From positions 1-51,332 of the forward strand of contig NZ_JACBYE010000029.1 of NCBI RefSeq assembly GCF_013415325.1: a stretch of DNA of 51,332 bases. The letters are read 5' to 3'. Made by a program: the position numbers and the translations under genes. Source of the DNA: Sanguibacter inulinus. GTDB taxonomy: Bacteria > Actinomycetota > Actinomycetes > Actinomycetales > Cellulomonadaceae. Positions 3,040 through 32,033 of the stretch are shown one piece after another; within the stretch, counting starts at the first letter, position 1, and every line of letters starts with the position of its first letter. The notes beneath the pieces were generated by a model that worked only from the letters and a program-made list of their open reading frames with translations, was not told the origin of the DNA and did not search any database.

Positions 3040-6000
3040 GTGCCCACCGTCCTCGAGCAGCGCGTCAGACGCGTACTCGCCACCCTGACAGCGCTCGCGC
3101 TCACCGCCGGGCTGTCTCTCGTCGGCGTCCTCGCGCCGGCCCAGGCAGATCCCGCCGCCGGCACCCTCTCGTGGGGGGTCAAGGAGAGCTTCCGCTCGTA
3201 CATCGCCAGTCCCATCGCCAAGGGCTCCGTGACTGTGGGCGGAGGGGCGACGAACAACGGCACCAGCTACGGCTTCGCCCAGACGGCGACGACCTTCGAC
3301 GGCTCGACAGGACTGACCACCTTCGCCGGATCGGTGAACTTCACAGGGCACGACGGAGCCCTCGACACGACCTTCGAGAACCTCCGGGTCCGGGTCGACT
3401 CCCCGACCGCCGGTGTCCTCGTCGCTGACGCCCGGGGCAAGAGCTTCGACACAGGTGGGGCCTATGAGCTGCTGGATGTCGAGCTGGCCACGCTCGCACT
3501 CCCTGCTCCGCAGGTCGACGGTGACGTCTCGACGTGGGTTTCCGCACCGGCGGCCCTGACCGCGGCTGGCGCGCAGGCCTTCGCCGGGTTCTATGCTGCC
3601 GGCAGCGCGCTCGACCCCGTGACCTTCTCGGTCGTCACGGAGGCTCCGGCCGAGCCGGAGCCCGAGCCGACGACGCCAGACCCTGAGCCGACGACGCCTG
3701 AGCCCTCGCCCGAGCCCACCGAAGAGCCGAGCCCGGAGCCGACCACCGAGCCCACGCCCGAGCCGACCGACCCTCCGGTCGCGACCTTCGAGCCTGCGGT
3801 GAGCCTGTTCGCTGCTGACGGCACGACGCCGCTCGCGTCGTCGTCGGTCAAGCTCGGTGACACGATCGTGGTGAAGGGTTCGGGCTTCGACCCGGCTGGG
3901 AACCTCGCTCCTGCGGGTGCGCGTCCGCCGATCTCGGCGGGCAACCCCGCGGGGACCTACGTGGTGTTCGGCAAGTTCGCCGACACGTGGAAGCCCTCTG
4001 CTGGTGCTGCGTCGAGCACGCGTGTCGCGGGTGACCAGAAGTGGGCGCTGAGCGATGCTGCCTTCGCGCTGGTCAACCCGGCCTACCAGCCGGCCATCGC
4101 CGGTCAGCGTGCGGTGATCGCGCCGGACGGGACGTTCACCACGACGCTGACGGTCAAGGAGAAGGCGACCGGGTGGCCCGAGTCGGGCAACCTCGGTGTC
4201 TACACCTACGCAGCCGGTGGCACGACCAACGCTGAGCAGGAGCTCTACGCACCCGTCACCCTCGCCCCTCCTGCTCCGGTCTTCGAGCCTGCTGTGAGCC
4301 TGTTCGCTGCTGACGGCACGACGCCGCTCGCGTCGTCGTCGGTGAAGCTGGGCGACACGATCGTGGTCAAGGGTTCGGGCTTCGACCCGGCTGGGAACCT
4401 GGCTCCTGCGGGTGCGCGTCCGCCGATCTCGGCGGGCAACCCTGCGGGGACCTACGTGGTGTTCGGCAAGTTCGCCGACACGTGGAAGCCCTCTGCTGGT
4501 GCTGCGTCGAGCACGCGGGTGGCTGGCGACCAGAAGTGGGCGCTGAGCGATGCTGCTTTCGCGCTGGTCAACCCGGCCTACCAGCCGGCCATCGCCGGGC
4601 AGCGTGCGGTGATCGCCCCGGACGGGACCTTCACCACGACGCTGACGGTCAAGGAGAAGGCGACCGGGTGGCCCGAGTCGGGCAACCTCGGTGTCTACAC
4701 CTACGCGGCCGGTGGCACGACCAACGCCGACCAGGAGCTCTACGCACCCGTCACCCTCGCGACCGCTCCGACGGACCCTGAGGTGCCGACCGACCCCGAG
4801 GTCCCCACAGACCCGACGGACCCTGAGGTCCCCACGGTGCCGACCGACCCCGAGGTGCCGACCACGCCGGAGACCCCGGTCGTCCTGGGCTCGCTCAGCT
4901 GGGGCGTCAAGGAGTCCTTCCGCAGCTACATCACCGGCCCGATCGCCAAGGGCGGCATCTCGGTCCTCGCGCCGGCCACGGCTGACGGCTCGCGCTACGT
5001 CTTCCCGCAGTCGTCGTCGGCACTCGCCGGGACGACAGGGTCCGCGAGCTACGCGGGTGCTGTGCTCTTCACGGGCCACGCTGGTGCGCTCGAGCTCACG
5101 CTGAGCAACCCCACGGTCCGGGTCACCGGCCCGACGTCGGGTGTCCTGGTCGTCGACGCGAAGGGCAAGAAGATCAGCGGCGAGGTCCTCGACCTCCAGG
5201 CCGTCGACTTCGCGACCCTCACGCTCCCGACGCCCACCACTGCGGGCGGAGCGACCACCTGGACCGACGCCCAGGCGACACTGACCGCAGCCGGCGCCAC
5301 GGCCTTCTCCGACTTCTACCCGGCCGGTGCCGCCATCGACCCGGTGACCTTCACCGTCGGCTCGGACGTCGGCAGCACCCCCGGTGGGCAGAACCCTGGT
5401 ACCGGGCCCGGCACCGACCCCGGCACTCCCGTGGTCGTCACCCCGCTCGCTCCCGGCACCTACGCCAACGCGATCGCCAGCGTCACGACCGTCGTCCCCG
5501 GCGGCGAGGTCACCTTCACGGGTCAGGGCTTCGGCTCCGGCACCGAGAACATCGAGGCCGCGGTCTACTCCGAGCGCCAGCTGCTCGCGTCGGGCATCAC
5601 GGCCGACGCCTCGGGTGCCGCCACGGCGACCGTCACCCTCCCGAAGAACCTCGCACCGGGCGTCCACACGCTCTCGCTCGAGTCGCCCTCGGGTGTGAGG
5701 TCGCAGGTGCAGATCACCGTCGAGGCGCCTGTCGTCCCGACGGCCGCGCAGCAGTGCGTCGCCCGCTCGGTCTCGGGCGCGACGCTCAGCTGGGGCGTCA
5801 AGGAGTCCTTCCGCACCTACATCACCGGTCCGATCGCCAAGGGCTCCATCACGCCCTCCGGCGTGACCAGCAGCGGCAGCAGCTTCGGCTGGGGCGGCGG
5901 CAGCGGCAAGTTCAACACCGAGGTGAACCAGGGACGCGTCGCCTTCCCCGGGTCGGTGAACTTCTCCGGTCACGGCGGGATCCTCGACCTGACCATCTCC

Positions 6001-24853: not shown

Positions 24854-25891
24854 ATGACGACGACAGCGACGACCGAGACCGTCACGAGCGCCGAGCCCGC
24901 GTACCGCGTCTTCGACGTCACGGTCTCCCGGGTGCAGCAGCTGAGCCCGTCCTTCGTCCGCATCACGTTCACGGGGCCTGACGCCGCTGCCTTCGGCACC
25001 GACGGTCTCGACCAGCGCATCAAGCTCGTGCTCCCGAACGAGGCCGGCCACCGCCCGGACGCCGCAGACTTCGAGGGTGACAGCTGGTACGCCGCGTGGC
25101 GCGAGCTTTCCGACGAGCTCCGCTGCCCGCTGCGCACCTACACGGTCCGTGCCGTCCGCCCGCACGTCGGGCTCGGTGAGATCGACATCGACCTCGTCGT
25201 CCACGTCTCCGAGGACGGCCACGACGGACCGGCCGCCCGCTGGCTGAAGACCGCCGAGGTCGGCACGCCCTGCGTCCTCATCGGTCCGAACGCACGCTAC
25301 GACGGACCGCCGTCCGGCATCGAGTGGGCTCCGCCCGCCTCCGCGAGCACGCTGCTGCTCGCCGGTGACGAGACTGCCGCCCCCGCCATCTGCTCTATCC
25401 TCGAGTCGCTCGCCCCCGGCACGCAGGCGCACGCCTTCGTCGAGGTCCCGCTCGAGGGCGACGCGCTGCCGCTCGACCTGGCCGAGGGCGTCTCGATCAC
25501 GTGGTTGCCGCGCAGCCGGGGCGGCGCGACACCGGTCGAGCACGGCAGTCTCCTCGACCGCGCCGTCCGGTCCCACATGCAGCTCTGCGCCGCCAAGCAG
25601 GCTGCCGGGCTGTGCGACATGTCGTGCCACGAGGTGCCGATCGAGCGCATCACCCTTCCGGCCCGCCCCGCCGCGGCCGAGCTGGACGATGTGGACGTCG
25701 ACCAGAACATCCTGTGGGAGGTGCCGACGGTCGAAGACTCCGCGCGCCCCCTGACCGACTGCTACGCCTGGATCGCCGGCGAAGCCGGCGTCATCAAGCT
25801 GCTCCGCCGCCACCTGGTGAGCGACCTGGGCATCGACCGCCGCTCGGTCGCCTTCATGGGCTACTGGCGCCGCGGCAAGGCCGAGGGCTGA
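24854..25891 (+). CDS. Siderophore-interacting protein (FAD-binding ferric-siderophore reductase)
   Basis: A 345-aa flavoprotein of the SIP/ViuB family that reduces ferric siderophores in the cytoplasm to release iron. The FAD-binding region includes RTYTVRAVRP, the family's R-x-Y-T-hydrophobic motif, preceded by the SFVRITFTGPD strand. The NAD(P)-binding half has LLLAGDETAAPAICSILE, and the C-terminal YAWIAGEAGVIKLLRRHLV ends in the MGYWRRG motif of SIPs. A stretch of about 50 residues around 245-290 (MQLCAAKQ, CDMSCHE, DVDQNILWE) is an insertion or long linker rich in Cys. The -10 box is 6 nt from the ATG, so the transcript is probably leaderless. No siderophore synthesis gene is nearby. 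Confidence 0.93.
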   Translation: MTTTATTETVTSAEPAYRVFDVTVSRVQQLSPSFVRITFTGPDAAAFGTDGLDQRIKLVLPNEAGHRPDAADFEGDSWYAAWRELSDELRCPLRTYTVRAVRPHVGLGEIDIDLVVHVSEDGHDGPAARWLKTAEVGTPCVLIGPNARYDGPPSGIEWAPPASASTLLLAGDETAAPAICSILESLAPGTQAHAFVEVPLEGDALPLDLAEGVSITWLPRSRGGATPVEHGSLLDRAVRSHMQLCAAKQAAGLCDMSCHEVPIERITLPARPAAAELDDVDVDQNILWEVPTVEDSARPLTDCYAWIAGEAGVIKLLRRHLVSDLGIDRRSVAFMGYWRRGKAEG

Positions 25892-26641: not shown

Positions 26642-26920
26642 GTGGGACGCGTAGTCGTCGACGTCATGCCCAAGCCCGAGATCCTCGACCCGCAGGGGAA
26701 GGCCGTCGCCAACGCCCTGCCGCGCCTCGGTCTCACAGGCTTCACCAGCGTGCGCCAGGGCAAGCGCTTCGAGCTCGAGGTCGACGGGCCGGTGACGGAC
26801 GAGGTCCTGGCCGCCGCCCGCGAGGCCGCAGCGACGGTGCTCTCCAACCCGATCATCGAAGACGTCGTGGCCGTCGTCGACGCCGCGAGCCTCGACGCCG
26901 TCCAGGGCGCCCAGGCATGA
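26642..26920 (+). CDS. purS: Phosphoribosylformylglycinamidine synthase subunit PurS
   Basis: A 92-aa small subunit that bridges PurL and PurQ in FGAM synthase. It has [19 protein letters not shown] and a two-stranded [14 protein letters not shown], both typical. The length is normal. GTG 26642 is 5 nt after AGGAG. The TGA overlaps the purQ ATG by 4 nt. Confidence 0.93.
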
Positions 26921-27633
26921 GCGACGTCCTCACCGGCGCGCGCATCGGCGTCATCACCTTCCCCGGCACGCTCGACGACCGCGACGCGGCCCGCGCCGTC
27001 CGCATCGCCGGTGGCACCGCGGTCCCGCTGTGGCACGCCGACGCCGACCTCCACGGGGTCGACGCCGTGGTCCTGCCGGGTGGGTTCTCCTACGGCGACT
27101 ACCTGCGCGCCGGGGCGATCTCCCGCTTCGCACCTGTCATGGACGTCCTCGTCGACGCCGCGAAGGGCGGGCTCCCCGTCCTCGGCATCTGCAACGGCTT
27201 CCAGATCCTCACCGAGTCGCACCTGCTGCCCGGCTCGATGATCAAGAACGAGTCGCTGTCCTTCCTGTGCCGCGAGCAGCGCCTCACGGTCGAGAACGCC
27301 GACACCGCCTGGACGCGCGGCTTCCGTGCCGGCCAGGAGATCACCATCCCGCTCAAGAACCAGGACGGGCAGTTCGTCGCCGACGAGCGCACCCTCGACG
27401 AGCTCGAGGGCGAGGGCCGCGTCGTGTTCCGCTACGCGGGCGAGAACCCCAACGGCTCGCGCCGCGGGATCGCCGGCATCACGAACGCCGCCGGCAACGT
27501 CGTCGGCCTCATGCCGCACCCCGAGCACGCTGTCGAGGTCGGGTTCGGGACGGCCGCCGAGGCCGGACCCCGCGCCGGGACCGACGGGCTGACCTTCTTC
27601 ACCTCGGTGCTCGGCACGCTCGTCACCGCCTGA
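26917..27633 (+). CDS. purQ: Phosphoribosylformylglycinamidine synthase subunit PurQ
   Basis: A 238-aa class I glutamine amidotransferase that supplies ammonia to PurL. The nucleophile is in [11 protein letters not shown], and the His-Glu pair is in [24 protein letters not shown] and [16 protein letters not shown] are the PurQ start motifs. The gene is followed by a strong terminator and the convergent metZ, so purL, which often comes next in actinobacteria, is not in this window. Confidence 0.96.
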
Positions 27634-27759: not shown

Positions 27760-29037
27760 TCAGGCCTGGAGCGCGATCTCCAGGTCTTCGATGAGGTCCT
27801 GCACGTCCTCGAGCCCTACGCTCAGGCGCACCGTCGTCTCGGCGATGCCGACAGCGGCGCGGCCCTCGGGGCCGATCCTGCGGTGCGTGGTCGTCGCGGG
27901 GTGCGTGATGAGCGACTTCGCGTCGCCGAGGTTGTTCGAGATGTCGATGACCTCGAGGGCGTCGAGGAAGGCGAAGGTGCGCTTCTTGGCCGACTCCGGG
28001 TCGGTGCCCTCGGGGACAGCGAGGTCGAAGGTGACGACGGTCCCGCCGCCGGTCTGCTGCTTGCGGGCGAGCTCGTGCTGCGGGTGCGACGGCAGGAACG
28101 GATAGCGGACCCGGGTGATCCCCGGCAGCGTCTCGAGGTGCTCGGCGACCCGCAGCGCTGCGGCGGTCTGCGCCGCGACACGGATCGGCAAGGTCTCGAG
28201 TCCCTTGAGCAGCACCCAGGCGTTGAAGGGGCTGAGCGAGGGTCCGGTGTTCCTGATGAACTTCTGGACGGGCCCCTCGATGTACTCCTTCGACCCGAGG
28301 ATGGCCCCGCCGAGCACGCGGCCCTGCCCGTCGATGTGCTTGGTGGCCGAGTACACCACGACGTCGGCGCCGAGCTCGAAGGGCTTCTGCAGGATCGGCG
28401 TCGCGAAGACGTTGTCGAGGACCACGACGGCGCCGGCGGCGTGCGCGAGCTCGCAGACGCGCTCGACGTCGACGATGTCCTGCATCGGGTTGGACGGGGT
28501 CTCGAAGAAGACGACGTCGGCCGGGGTGGCCAGGGCCGCCTCCCACTGCTCGGTCTCGTGGCCGTCGACGTAGTCCACGGTGACGCCCCAGTCGGCGAAG
28601 ATCTCGTCGAAGATCACCACGGTCGAGCCGAAGAGCGCTCGGGCCGAGACGATGCGGGACCCGGACTTCACGAGGGCCGCGAGGGAGGTGAAGACTGCAG
28701 ACATGCCTGTCGCCGTCGCGTAGCAGGCCTCGGCGCCGTCGAGGAGCCGCAGGCGCTCCTCGAACATGTGGACCGTCGGGTTGCCGTAGCGGGAGTAGAT
28801 GAAGCGGTCGGTCTCGCCCTTGAAGGCGGCCTCGGCGTCGGCGGCCTGCGCGTAGACGTAGCCCTGGGTGAGGTAGATCGGCTCTGAGGTCTCCTGGAAC
28901 TCGGAGCGGACCTGGCCGCCGCGGACAGCGGCGGTCGCGGCACGGACCGTGCGCGGAGGGCGAGCCGGGTCGGACGACGGGACGTTCGGTGCGGTCGCGG
29001 CCGAAGCGCCGGCCGGGGCGTCAGGGGTGGTCGACAT
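27760..29037 (-). CDS. metZ: O-succinylhomoserine sulfhydrylase (MetZ-like)
   Basis: A 425-aa PLP enzyme of the Cys/Met metabolism family that makes homocysteine from an activated homoserine and sulfide. The PLP lysine is in YSATKHIDGQGRVLGG, with SRYGNPT and ETPSNPMQDIVDV as further family signatures. The N-terminal 30 residues are a Pro/Ala-rich extension. IDGQGR after the lysine favours MetZ over cystathionine gamma-synthase, but O-acetyl versus O-succinyl use is not certain. It lies 6 nt after the rhodanese stop, so both are read from the SAM-I riboswitch transcript. Confidence 0.9.
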   Translation of the reverse strand: MSTTPDAPAGASAATAPNVPSSDPARPPRTVRAATAAVRGGQVRSEFQETSEPIYLTQGYVYAQAADAEAAFKGETDRFIYSRYGNPTVHMFEERLRLLDGAEACYATATGMSAVFTSLAALVKSGSRIVSARALFGSTVVIFDEIFADWGVTVDYVDGHETEQWEAALATPADVVFFETPSNPMQDIVDVERVCELAHAAGAVVVLDNVFATPILQKPFELGADVVVYSATKHIDGQGRVLGGAILGSKEYIEGPVQKFIRNTGPSLSPFNAWVLLKGLETLPIRVAAQTAAALRVAEHLETLPGITRVRYPFLPSHPQHELARKQQTGGGTVVTFDLAVPEGTDPESAKKRTFAFLDALEVIDISNNLGDAKSLITHPATTTHRRIGPEGRAAVGIAETTVRLSVGLEDVQDLIEDLEIALQA

Positions 29038-29043
29038 CCTCGT

Positions 29044-29475
29044 TCACTCCCCAGCGGTGTAGGAGGTGCTCGGCAGCCCGCGCAGGCGCCAGCCGTTGAC
29101 GGTCCGCCCGCCGGAGAGGTCCGTGTCGCCCTCGAAACCCTCGAGCACGTTGTACGACGGACCGAAACCGGCTGCCGTCGCGTCCACAGCCGCGCCGATC
29201 GAGCGGTTGCCCGAGCGGCACAGGAAGATCACCGGGCGGCCGTCGCCAGGTGTGAGGCCGGCCTCGGCCAGCTGGTCGAGGAAGCGCGGGTTGGGGCCGA
29301 AGGCCGTCGCCCACTCGGTGAAGACGACCTCGCGGTCGCCGTCGAGCGGGGAGAGGTCGGGGACGCCGATCTGCTGCCACTCACCGACCGTGCGTACGTC
29401 CACGAGGACGGCGTCGGGGGTGGTCTCGAGCAGGTCCCAGGCCTGCTGCGGGGTGAGGTCGCCTGCGTAGCTCAT
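29044..29475 (-). CDS. Rhodanese-like sulfurtransferase
   Basis: A 143-aa single rhodanese domain. The catalytic cysteine is in VIFLCRSGNRSIGAA, the usual CRSGxRS loop, and the substrate-binding VLVDVRTVGEW lies near the N terminus. It would carry or donate sulfur as persulfide and, placed before metZ, may supply sulfide for homocysteine synthesis. The ATG (29475) has GGAGG 6 nt upstream; this site overlaps the 3' strand of the riboswitch P1 helix. A second ATG at 29480 is out of frame. Confidence 0.93.
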   Translation of the reverse strand: MSYAGDLTPQQAWDLLETTPDAVLVDVRTVGEWQQIGVPDLSPLDGDREVVFTEWATAFGPNPRFLDQLAEAGLTPGDGRPVIFLCRSGNRSIGAAVDATAAGFGPSYNVLEGFEGDTDLSGGRTVNGWRLRGLPSTSYTAGE

Positions 29476-29484
29476 GTCATGCCT

Positions 29485-29583
29485 CCATCGGTCCGTGGCG
29501 GTAGCACCCTCGCCCCGACGTCGAGCTCGTCGGAGGGGTTGCTGCGGCGTCGTCGTGCCAGGTCACTCAGCCGCTCTGGATGG
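29485..29583 (-). ncRNA. SAM-I (S-box) riboswitch before rhodanese-metZ
   Basis: On the minus strand, P1 pairs CCATC (29583-29579) with GATGG (29489-29485). The core contains AGAGCGGCTGAGTGACCTGG, then GCAACC, and GGTGCTACCG, matching the S-box pattern. The last bases of P1 overlap the GGAGG Shine-Dalgarno of the rhodanese gene. SAM binding that stabilises P1 would therefore block translation. No terminator helix is seen between aptamer and gene. Translational control is inferred. Confidence 0.8.
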
Positions 29584-29660
29584 TTGTCCCTCTGAGCATC
29601 GCCCTCGACCCCCAGAATGAGACAGCCCGTCCAGCATGCAAGACAGACTGCGCTCGCTGA

Positions 29661-29689
29661 TTGACACCCCCGGAAACCTCGCCAATCCT
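29661..29689 (+). promoter_or_regulatory. Promoter of SAM-IV riboswitch transcript
   Basis: TTGACA (29661-29666), 17-nt spacer, AATCCT (29684-29689). The predicted start is at about 29696, right at the 5' edge of the aptamer. Confidence 0.65.
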
Positions 29690-29694
29690 TGACG

Positions 29695-29810
29695 CAGGTC
29701 ATGAGTGCCAGCGTGTAACCCCGGTTTGCTGGCCGGCAACCCTCCTCCGCGGTGGGGTGCCCCGGGTGACGACCTGGCCGGAACCAGATGGTCTCCGGCA
29801 AGCGCGGGAA
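29695..29810 (+). ncRNA. SAM-IV riboswitch before class V aminotransferase
   Basis: The segment starting GGTCATGAGTGCCAGCG and running through GCTGGCCGGCAACC to GGTGGGGTGCCCCGGGTGA closely matches the actinobacterial SAM-IV aptamer. P1 pairs CAGGTC (29695-29700) with GACCTG (29771-29776). A 3' hairpin (29777-29799) and GGCAAGCGCGG follow as in the class; CCGC at 29747-29750 could make the pseudoknot with GCGG at 29804-29807. GATCC (29832-29836) can pair with GGATC (29852-29856) and mask part of the ribosome-binding site. The control mechanism is inferred. Confidence 0.9.
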
Positions 29811-29857
29811 TCGGTCGAACCCATGTGCGTCGATCCCCACCACGTCCTGGAGGATCT

Positions 29858-31288
29858 ATGTCTGCCACCCCTGAAGCCCAGTCCTGCCTGCCTGTCGTCG
29901 GCTCGGACACCCTCGTCCCGCTCGTCGACGGCCGGACGGTCACCTACGCCAACCTCGACTGCGCAGCGAGCGCCCCTGCGCTCCAGGCCGTCGCCGACCG
30001 CGTCACCCAGGTGCTGCCGCTCTACGCCTCCGTGCACCGCGGCGCGGGCTACCTCTCGCAGGTCTCGACTGCCCTCTACGAGGCCTCGCGCCAGACCATC
30101 GGCGCCTTCGTGGGTGCCCGGCCCGACGACGTCACGGTCGTCACGCGCAACACGACAGACTCGCTCAACCTGCTCGCCGGCTGCGTCCCGGCCGACGCGG
30201 ACGGCACCCCCGGCCGGGTGCTCGTCCTCGACGTCGAGCACCACGCCAACCTCCTCCCGTGGCAGCGGTCGACCGGCGGTGCGACCGTGCTGCACGGTGC
30301 GGAGACCGTGGCCGAGACCCTCGAGGCGATCCGGGCCGAGCTCGCCCGGGCGCCCTACGCGCTGCTCGCGCTCACCGGGGCGTCGAACGTCACCGGCGAG
30401 CTGTTGCCTGTCGCCGACGTGGTCGCGATCGCCCACGAGGCGGGGACGCGTGTCGCGATCGACGGTGCTCAGCTGGTGCCGCACCGCCGCTTCTCGCTCG
30501 CCGAGACCGGGGTCGACTACATCTCCTACTCGGGCCACAAGACGTACGCGCCCTTCGGGTCGGGGGCCCTCGTGGGCCGTCGCGACTGGCTCGACGCCGG
30601 GACGCCCTACCTCGCCGGTGGTGGGGCTGTCCGCCAGGTCGACCTCGACCAGGTGCAGTGGACGAACGCCCCGGCGCGGCACGAGGCCGGCTCGCCGAAC
30701 GTCATCGGCGCCGTGGCCCTGGCCGCTGCCTGCGAGACCCTCGCGTCGCTGTCCGCGGGCACGCTCGAGGCGCACGAGGCCTACCTGCGCGAGCGACTGG
30801 TGAGCGGCCTCGAGTCCATCCCGGGCGTCCAGGTGGTCCGGGCCTGGGCCGACGCGTCCGACCCTGTCGGCGTTGTGACCTTCTCGGTCGTCGGGCACGA
30901 CCCGGGCCTCGTCGCTGCCTACCTCTCGGCCGAGCACGGGATCGGCGTGCGCGACGGTCGCTTCTGCGCCCACCCGCTCCTCGCCCGGCTCGGCTACGCC
31001 TCGGGTGCCGTGCGGGCCAGCGTGGGCGTCGGGACCACCCAGGAGGAGGTCGACCGTCTGGTCGCCGCCCTCGAGACTTACGTGACTGACGGCCCGACTG
31101 CTCGTTACGAGATCGTCGACGCCTGCTGGACCGTCGCCGACGACCCGCGTCCGCTGCCTGAGGGATCGGGTCTCTCGGGGCTCATCGCCACTGCCGCGGC
31201 CGGGTTCATCGCGGGGGCTGCCGGCTGCGGCCCTGTCCCGGAGCCGCAGGCCTCGGCTGCGCGTGCAGGATCGCTCGTCGACGCCTGA
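29858..31288 (+). CDS. Class V aminotransferase / cysteine desulfurase-like protein under SAM-IV control
   Basis: A 476-aa PLP enzyme of the SufS/Csd-like fold. The PLP lysine is in ISYSGHKTYAPFGSGAL, with VLVLDVEHHANLLPWQ and AIDGAQLVPHRRF as family motifs. A cysteine in GRFCAHPLL lies where the desulfurase active-site loop should be. It is longer than typical SufS by about 60 residues, with a C-terminal Ala/Gly-rich tail containing two cysteines. ATG 29858 has GGAGG 4 nt upstream. SAM control suggests sulfur donation or recycling for methionine synthesis instead of Fe-S assembly; this is inference. Confidence 0.85.
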   Translation: MSATPEAQSCLPVVGSDTLVPLVDGRTVTYANLDCAASAPALQAVADRVTQVLPLYASVHRGAGYLSQVSTALYEASRQTIGAFVGARPDDVTVVTRNTTDSLNLLAGCVPADADGTPGRVLVLDVEHHANLLPWQRSTGGATVLHGAETVAETLEAIRAELARAPYALLALTGASNVTGELLPVADVVAIAHEAGTRVAIDGAQLVPHRRFSLAETGVDYISYSGHKTYAPFGSGALVGRRDWLDAGTPYLAGGGAVRQVDLDQVQWTNAPARHEAGSPNVIGAVALAAACETLASLSAGTLEAHEAYLRERLVSGLESIPGVQVVRAWADASDPVGVVTFSVVGHDPGLVAAYLSAEHGIGVRDGRFCAHPLLARLGYASGAVRASVGVGTTQEEVDRLVAALETYVTDGPTARYEIVDACWTVADDPRPLPEGSGLSGLIATAAAGFIAGAAGCGPVPEPQASAARAGSLVDA

Positions 31289-31410: not shown

Positions 31411-31544
31411 GGCGGGTCCACCCGGCAGGCTTCGTCGCGTGCGCTTAATACCCGGTGGAGCCGCCCGTGCGCTTGAAAGTCCTTTTTAGGTGTAGTGTCA
31501 CTTATAGCAGGTCAATGATGACTTGCGTATATTGGAGGCACAAG

Positions 31545-32033
31545 ATGCGTAATATCAAGAAGTCCATAGCCGGTTTGGTCGTCGCGGGTTTGATGACAGT
31601 TGGCCTTGTGTCGCCTGCGACGGCAACCGAGTCACCAGTGTTCGATGAGCTTCCTGTCGCGGAGTTCGCGGCGACGGAGGCGGGAGGTGGCGGAGCCCAG
31701 CTCGTTCCTTTCGGATCCGGGAGCCTCATCGTCTCGGTCCCGGACGACGTCGATCAGGCGCCCCTCATCGAAGGGCAGCGGACCTCTAGGCTCTCGGTCG
31801 GGCTCGGATGGACGTTCTACGTCTATCTCAACCGGACTGACCAGGCCGTGCTCGCCGGCGGGGGTGCCACGAGCCTGGGCATCTTGGTTTGCGCGATCCC
31901 GGGTGTCGGAATTCCTGCGTGCGCAGCTGTTGCGGGACTCCTCGTCGCAGGCGCTACATACATCGCGCTCAACGGTCTGTGCCCGTCCCGTCTCGAGCTT
32001 GCCGTGGGGAAGGGGTCCAAGTGCGTCAGCTAG
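31545..32033 (+). CDS. Secreted four-cysteine small protein, bacteriocin-like, unknown family
   Basis: A 162-aa predicted secreted protein that I do not recognise. Residues 1-27 form a signal peptide (KKSIAGLVVAGLMTVGLVSP, cut near ATA). A Gly/Glu-rich segment (28-85) is followed by GWTFYVYLNRTDQ (88-100) and a 40-residue Gly/Ala-rich hydrophobic region (101-141). Cysteines are at 116, 126, 146 and 160, enough for two disulfides. ATG 31545 has GGAGG 6 nt upstream. The promoter region 31440-31540 is AT-rich for this genome. The next small gene overlaps it. A membrane-active peptide is a possibility, not a demonstrated fact. Confidence 0.75.
   Translation: MRNIKKSIAGLVVAGLMTVGLVSPATATESPVFDELPVAEFAATEAGGGGAQLVPFGSGSLIVSVPDDVDQAPLIEGQRTSRLSVGLGWTFYVYLNRTDQAVLAGGGATSLGILVCAIPGVGIPACAAVAGLLVAGATYIALNGLCPSRLELAVGKGSKCVS

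Follow-up and report, generated by a model that had tools for sequence, protein, structure and literature searches.

Back-to-back SAM-I and SAM-IV riboswitch aptamers in a divergent intergenic region of Sanguibacter inulinus and its relatives, with a SAM-I form that is without P4

SAM-IV riboswitches are without the P4 helix of SAM-I and gain the pseudoknot PK-2 together with P5, according to the available part of a cryo-EM report (PMC6890682). A ribosome-binding site placed inside P1 is a known direct mode of SAM-I action in actinobacteria (PMC2258182). Both SAM-I and SAM-IV have been reported in Streptomyces lividans, with SAM-IV ahead of a cysteine desulfurase gene (PMC8079986, in the portion available), and in S. 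clavuligerus a class V PLP gene follows a predicted SAM-IV (PMC8269248, likewise in the portion available). The co-occurrence of the two classes and the link between SAM-IV and SufS-like genes are thus already known, and they are not peculiar to the S. inulinus genome. In the literature searched, neither a divergent SAM-I/SAM-IV pair nor a P4-less SAM-I was found described; both may already stand in the founding SAM-IV work or in the structure work on the SAM clan.

The stretch of DNA analysed here, called the window, comprises 51,332 nt of S. inulinus contig NZ_JACBYE010000029.1. Only two matches at gathering level were found in the whole window with Rfam 15 (cmscan), SAM-IV on the plus strand and SAM-I on the minus strand, and a divergent intergenic spacer of 110 nt separates them. 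The features of the locus are as follows.

27760-29037, minus strand: metZ, O-succinylhomoserine sulfhydrylase (NF005870, 738 bits, cutoff 618)
29044-29475, minus strand: rhodanese-domain protein (PF00581), first gene of the SAM-I operon
29482-29486, minus strand: Shine-Dalgarno GGAGG of the rhodanese gene, assigned by sequence; 29485-29486 are common to the 3' strand of P1
29482-29586, minus strand: SAM-I aptamer (RF00162), P4-less; 52.7 bits, gathering 44.4, E 2.3e-9
29587-29696, no strand: spacer between the aptamers, with two putative back-to-back promoters
29661-29689, plus strand: likely SAM-IV promoter, TTGACA at 29661-29666 and AATCCT at 29684-29689; the position of TTGAC is conserved
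29697-29810, plus strand: SAM-IV aptamer (RF00634); 112.3 bits, gathering 38, E 5e-20
29806-29813 with 29831-29837, plus strand: candidate antisequestor hairpin, bulged, GGGAAUCG with CGAUCCC; overlaps the PK-2 strand; supported family-wide, weak in the window
29832-29836 with 29852-29856, plus strand: candidate alternative pairing, by sequence, of GAUCC with GGAUC, which would cover part of the Shine-Dalgarno
29849-29853, plus strand: Shine-Dalgarno GGAGG of the SufS-like gene
29858-31288, plus strand: class V PLP enzyme of the SufS/cysteine-desulfurase type (PF00266, 277.7 bits), first gene after SAM-IV

The scores of both aptamers were identical when 29400-29900 was rescanned at a permissive threshold, and a chance match for either is ruled out by their E values in 51 kb. 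One shared class on both strands is likewise ruled out. In searches of the S. inulinus genome at E <= 0.001, the minus-strand element was absent from the RF00634 matches and the plus-strand element from the RF00162 matches, and the SAM-I/IV model (RF01725) gave no match anywhere in the genome at E <= 10. An earlier note on this DNA, made from the sequence alone, had proposed two different SAM riboswitch classes back to back, about 110 nt apart. This is borne out by the covariance search of both strands, in which each aptamer lies above its own gathering cutoff and the best classes differ, and by the measured distance. The SAM-I assignment of the minus-strand leader stands as to class by the Rfam score; its form is not typical, since P4 is absent. 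The arrangement does not have the form of a tandem riboswitch (two aptamers in one leader, on the same strand), as the two aptamers lie on opposite strands and belong to two operons. The module is real and, as described below, conserved.

In total, the S. inulinus genome has two SAM-I and three SAM-IV elements. The second SAM-I (contig C21, region 86000-96000, at 5439-5544, minus strand) precedes a metF-type gene and metE and is also P4-less. The two other SAM-IV elements lie in contig C40, 33000-43942. One precedes genes for an oligopeptide-type ABC transporter, which are followed by a rhodanese gene, and the other precedes a flavin reductase gene; close by are genes for a LysR regulator and a family 5 solute-binding protein.

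The PF00581 and NF005870 matches agree with the earlier assignment of the minus-strand leader to a rhodanese-metZ operon. The plus-strand gene had been called a class V aminotransferase, which is correct for the fold (PF00266); its sequence is of the SufS cysteine-desulfurase type. The encoded protein has 476 residues, its closest solved structures are cysteine desulfurases (PDB, best E 1.1e-59), and it scores under the cutoff of the NCBIfam sufS model TIGR01979 (288.5 vs 475.1 bits). All 80 relatives compared have both the SGHK motif with the PLP lysine and the cysteine of VRDGRFCAHPL, and we take this lysine and this cysteine to be catalytic positions. The invariant cysteine aligns with a cysteine of the cysteine desulfurase 8odq. 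Judged by its sequence, the gene is thus called SufS-like here. Since it is of the SufS type and an aminotransferase by fold only, it and rhodanese-metZ are only putatively the two arms of one pathway spoken of in the earlier note. A sulfur relay from the SufS-like protein through the rhodanese to MetZ is possible, as a speculation. Farther out in the window, genes for a siderophore-interacting protein (PF08021/PF04954) and PurQ lie upstream (24854-25891 and 26917-27633, plus strand) with nothing unusual about them. For a 192-residue open reading frame at 31455-32033 (plus strand), Pfam and NCBIfam gave no match at E <= 0.001; its start looks signal-like to the eye.

It is most likely that both leaders are translational OFF switches for SAM, where SAM binding and the OFF logic are presumed. 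The explanation that we favour, and consider somewhat probable, is a compact divergent unit in which both leaders act mainly at translation start, SAM-I through P1 and the Shine-Dalgarno and SAM-IV through PK-2 and its tail. The adjacency of the two classes would reflect the clustering of sulfur and methionine genes, in which every core gene retained the riboswitch class that it already had. In such a unit, two promoters, at the positions proposed above, would fire outward, each transcript beginning near the SAM aptamer that it carries. At high SAM levels, binding in both leaders would lower expression of both operons, chiefly at the initiation of translation. In the minus-strand leader, SAM would hold P1 of the P4-less SAM-I, the 3' strand of which enters the rhodanese Shine-Dalgarno, and this would be a direct block to the ribosome. 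In the plus-strand leader, the SAM-IV aptamer would hold PK-2, the PK-2 strand would be kept from forming a hairpin with a C-rich arm, and the freed arm may then pair with the Shine-Dalgarno of the SufS-like gene. We hold this SAM-IV switch to be much less certain than the P1/Shine-Dalgarno mode of SAM-I.

As the earlier note had claimed, P1 of the SAM-I element overlaps the Shine-Dalgarno, with the two bases at 29485-29486 shared; the Shine-Dalgarno stands six bases ahead of the start codon. Direct attachment of the Shine-Dalgarno to P1 is seen in 116 of 132 element copies. Counted as distinct elements, the two are joined in 86 of 100 and not joined in the other 14. Within the genus, the Shine-Dalgarno is joined in the window and in L147, and it lies about 10 bases beyond P1 in the sister Sanguibacter loci L065, L066, and L072 and in the same-genus L057. 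Therefore, direct blocking of the ribosome is not universal. Plain folding favours neither the SAM-I leader (z +1.29) nor the SAM-IV leader (z -0.22).

Conservation of the pair was followed in the best 80 of 234 stretches related to the SufS-like protein, some of which are metagenome-assembled genomes (MAGs). A SAM-IV element precedes the SufS-like gene in 79 of these 80 loci, and the remaining contig begins inside the gene; being the best matches from one family, the 79 loci are not independent. SAM-I scores over the Rfam cutoff in 35 of the 79, at 86-165 nt in 28 and at 318-1132 nt in 7. With a looser sequence pattern, a SAM-I-type element is present upstream on the other strand in 74 of the 79. 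The distance is below 200 nt in 53 of these, 273-337 nt in 3, and 748-2646 nt in 18. P4-less SAM-I elements often fall below the Rfam cutoff, and the standard model misses many of them when counted per locus. Loci characteristic of the cellulomonad group are present in two records, L143 (a MAG titled Proteobacteria bacterium) and L077 (Sphaerisporangium cinnabarinum), which are probably mislabelled or contaminated.

The pair may be an accident of gene neighbourhood, that is, usual riboswitches that came to stand head to head with no selection or coordination of the pairing itself, and we give this about an even chance. It is compatible with most of the favoured explanation, and the distribution of the elements agrees with it in several ways. 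The class tracks the core gene family, and 18 of the 74 loci have over 700 nt between the two elements. In family f14, the same SAM-IV/SufS-like gene faces a different SAM-I operon, one with a metF-type gene, at 136-161 nt in seven genomes as measured from coordinates. All six f14 regions that were fetched show the SAM-IV, the SufS-like gene, and an opposite-strand SAM-I before the metF-type gene. In NCBIfam, that gene scores highest against methylenetetrahydrofolate reductase, at 187-202 bits and so under the cutoff of 293.7 bits; the next gene is metE, over cutoff, in both regions tested. Divergent SAM-IV/SAM-IV pairs also exist, 156-167 nt apart (G080, contig C2, 77978-78365; G032, contig C2, 817005-817380). 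Two separate observations concern other loci. In L190 of family f13, SAM-IV/SufS-like and SAM-I/rhodanese-metZ are divergent and about 3 kb apart. The second is the f14 genome G293, which has 13 SAM-I and 7 SAM-IV elements, among them three divergent SAM-I/SAM-IV pairs 98-137 nt apart by coordinates.

Against a mere accident speak the short spacing in 53 of the 79 loci and the fixed position of TTGAC, which starts 36-38 nt ahead of the SAM-IV aptamer in 56 of 57 spacers; however, promoter constraint alone could explain both. Since TTGAC is fixed at this distance, transcription of the SAM-IV leader probably starts at about the first base of the aptamer. On the SAM-I side, a TACGAT-like element is present 9-14 nt before P1 and is weaker (47-66% per position). 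A strict sigma-70 scan found no promoter site. An inverted repeat, TGRGAC-N4-GTCYCA, was also noticed in the spacers (29587-29696 of the window, L112, L113, L119, and others), in some genera with one copy near each promoter. Its best score is at least 10/12 in 18 of 57 spacers and in 15 of 1140 shuffles, for a motif picked by eye from the same, related sequences, and the window spacer scores below 10. The repeat is possibly a transcription factor site.

The SAM-IV of the window matches the whole RF00634 model, that is, no P4, a P5 hairpin after P1, PK-1, and PK-2. In PK-2, CCGCG of the P3 loop (29747-29751) is complementary to CGCGG of the 3' tail (29803-29807). The tail sequence CGCGG is present in 80 of 80 rows, and the P3 loop, parsed in 49 of the 80, reads CCGCG in 47 and CTGCG in 2. 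Family SAM-IV leaders can form a hairpin after PK-2 and shortly ahead of the ribosome site, the 5' arm of which begins inside the PK-2 strand and which takes forms such as CGGGGAG/CUCCCCG, CGGAG/CUCCG, CGGACU/GGUCCG, and CGGGACC/GGUCCCG. The best tail helix averages 6.3 pairs in 62 tails vs 5.2 in shuffles, with 9 of 80 tails left out because no start codon was found. Own hairpin arms give -11.9 kcal/mol vs -10.4 kcal/mol when arms are swapped among 61 distinct tails (0 of 5000 permutations; L066 dropped), a comparison in which relatedness is not controlled. The earlier suggestion that SAM-IV may use a downstream helix therefore stands as a possible tail hairpin across the family and is weak in the window itself, where the perfect helix has only 4 bp and is equalled by 40 of 40 shuffles.

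It is doubtful, at roughly one chance in three or somewhat less in our judgement, that attenuation of transcription or early decay, and not masking of the Shine-Dalgarno, is how the SAM-IV leader acts. The weak statistics of the Shine-Dalgarno switch count in favour of such a mode. In the model, accessibility of the Shine-Dalgarno falls from 0.28 to 0.23 when PK-2 is blocked (62 tails), vs 0.32 to 0.30 in shuffles, and it falls by more than 0.1 in only 10 of the 62 tails. A specific pairing of the arm with the Shine-Dalgarno was rejected, as it was no better than swapped arms (662 of 5000). In S. clavuligerus, reads drop strongly from the predicted SAM-IV leader into the class V PLP gene, as given in the available part of that report (PMC8269248), which by analogy suggests a transcription-level effect of the SAM-IV leader. 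However, the window leader is without a terminator-like site: none was found in 29440-29900 by a scan to which Rho-dependent ends are invisible.

Both classes are common in the relatives of S. inulinus. Among 221 genomes of the family, SAM-I is present in 201, SAM-IV in 198, and both in 194 (three genomes assigned by elimination), and at least one SAM-I over the cutoff is found in 195. In 248 genomes of the order, the custom SAM-I model matches in 113 and SAM-IV in 148, with both in 96; in 296 genomes of the phylum, the numbers are 145 for SAM-I, 26 for SAM-IV, and 14 for both. Genes under each class were compared in a set of 12 genomes with 52 SAM-IV and 38 SAM-I matches, for which 49 and 36 regions were examined, those of S. 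inulinus itself being studied apart, and one downstream frame was taken per match by composition. In these genomes, the metF-type gene is under SAM-I in 6 of 6 cases, the SufS-like gene under SAM-IV in 7 of 7, and O-acetylhomoserine sulfhydrylase (over the NCBIfam cutoff) under SAM-IV in 5 of 5. SAM-I also precedes ten other genes of the metZ cluster; five were checked, and they comprise two O-succinylhomoserine sulfhydrylases over cutoff, two of the O-acetylhomoserine type below cutoff, and one cystathionine gamma-synthase (over the TIGR02080 cutoff). Luciferase-like monooxygenases, ABC transporter parts, and other transporters occur under both classes. Overall, the class mostly goes with the gene, and the rule is not strict. 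A strict split, in which SAM-I would serve methionine synthesis and SAM-IV sulfur uptake, fails on the monooxygenases and transporters.

These results bear on the idea that unequal SAM affinity, or unequal selectivity between SAM and SAH, has preserved the two neighbouring classes, so that one operon would shut first. The presence of both classes in most genomes of the family and their different peripheral architectures and expression platforms agree with this, but function is not cleanly split between them, and it seems to us rather unlikely. The mixed assignments also count against the favoured explanation, in which each core gene kept its own class.

The SAM-I of the window has P1 (29579-29583 with 29485-29489), P2 with an internal loop, P3, and PK-1, and the place of P4 is taken by a 13-nt J3/1. 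The element is thus without the P4 helix of SAM-I (RF00162), and we class it as a P4-less SAM-I variant that falls short of full membership in form. The same was found in all 65 of the family loci checked that have a SAM-I at Rfam level (52 distinct elements), where J3/1 is 11-13 nt long and too short for P4. In an alignment of 63 non-redundant SAM-I elements, the structure consists of P1 (5 pairs), P2a (5), P2b (3), PK-1 (4), and P3 (7), with 99.1% of cells paired. Covariation is 0.093 vs 0.029 when shuffled (0 of 500) and at most 0.025 when the structure is slid, and five pairs change on both sides. PK-1 and P2 covary; the end pair of PK-1 is C-G in 29 rows, G-C in 24, and G-U in 1, and it is unpaired in 7 (the window included) and a gap in 2. 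P1 is invariant across the alignment and, because it never varies, has no support from covariation. Many core columns are also invariant in all 63 rows, and the P2 internal loop is K-turn-like, as judged from the bases alone.

Beyond the family, a custom model (R1) was used, which was built from P4-less elements and is biased toward such forms. It gives the window SAM-I, one of its building sequences, 106.2 bits at 29475-29587. By pattern or by eye, P4 is absent in 30 of 30 R1 loci fetched across the order and in 35 of 36 SAM-I elements of the 12-genome set. The exception, L276 (genome G347, family f17), keeps P4, is the weakest R1 match (40.5 bits), and precedes a cystathionine gamma-synthase gene. 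In the phylum sample, outside the order, P4 is kept in 28 of the 30 best RF00162 loci, with about 20 nt or more at its place, a choice of loci that favours forms with P4; the other two, L281 and L284, did not parse. In the same class outside the order, P4 is kept in 7 of 7 SAM-I elements fetched, as judged by eye. Within the loci sampled, loss of P4 therefore appears to go with the order.

It is conceivable, and we think improbable, that the P4-less SAM-I of the order is a halfway form between SAM-I and SAM-IV, that SAM-IV arose from such a form in Actinomycetes, and that the two descendants, now on either side of a single spacer, form a SAM control unit that works in both directions through two different read-outs. 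P4 is gone as in SAM-IV, and the 12-nt J3/1 is near the length of that of SAM-IV; P5 and PK-2 are not gained. SAM-IV occurs in the same class outside the order, where SAM-I keeps P4, and the halfway form is less likely because SAM-IV is spread wider than the P4-less SAM-I in the loci sampled. Finally, that the minus element is a decayed SAM-I which no longer binds SAM since P4 was lost is very unlikely: it is only 8 bits above the Rfam cutoff and P4 is absent throughout the family loci checked, but the core columns are invariant, PK-1 covaries, and the elements precede metZ and metF-type genes in many genera.

Because the two classes have one ligand and the same binding core and occur in a single cell, separated by 110 nt, the locus offers a clean comparison of the roles of P4, P5, and PK-2, and the peripheral parts can be compared for affinity, selectivity, and read-out. 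If P4 has indeed been lost naturally across the order, the SAM-I class can do without this helix, and a path from SAM-I to SAM-IV could then be tested.

Compared with the SAM-I or S-box riboswitch (RF00162), the minus element has the same P1-P2-P3 core, a P2 loop that is K-turn-like by sequence, PK-1, and a ribosome-binding site in P1; it differs in being without P4 and in its J3/1 of 11-13 nt. The plus element matches the whole SAM-IV model (RF00634), for which the cryo-EM structure is described in the part of PMC6890682 available, and no difference in the aptamer was found; what we propose in addition is a tail hairpin that overlaps PK-2. The type of gene downstream is the same as for SAM-IV in Streptomyces, as far as the available parts of PMC8079986 and PMC8269248 go. 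SAM-I/IV (RF01725) has a related core and belongs to the same Rfam clan; it has P4 and lacks PK-1, as stated in the accessible part of PMC6890682, whereas the minus element has PK-1 and no P4. The SAM-II/SAM-V tandem (PMC9481103, the available portion) also places two classes for one ligand close together, but on one strand and for one gene, whereas here the aptamers lie on opposite strands and serve two operons. Overall, nothing in the locus amounts to a new kind of system: it joins two known classes, one of which takes a P4-less form not found described in the literature searched, and its value is as a good natural comparison.
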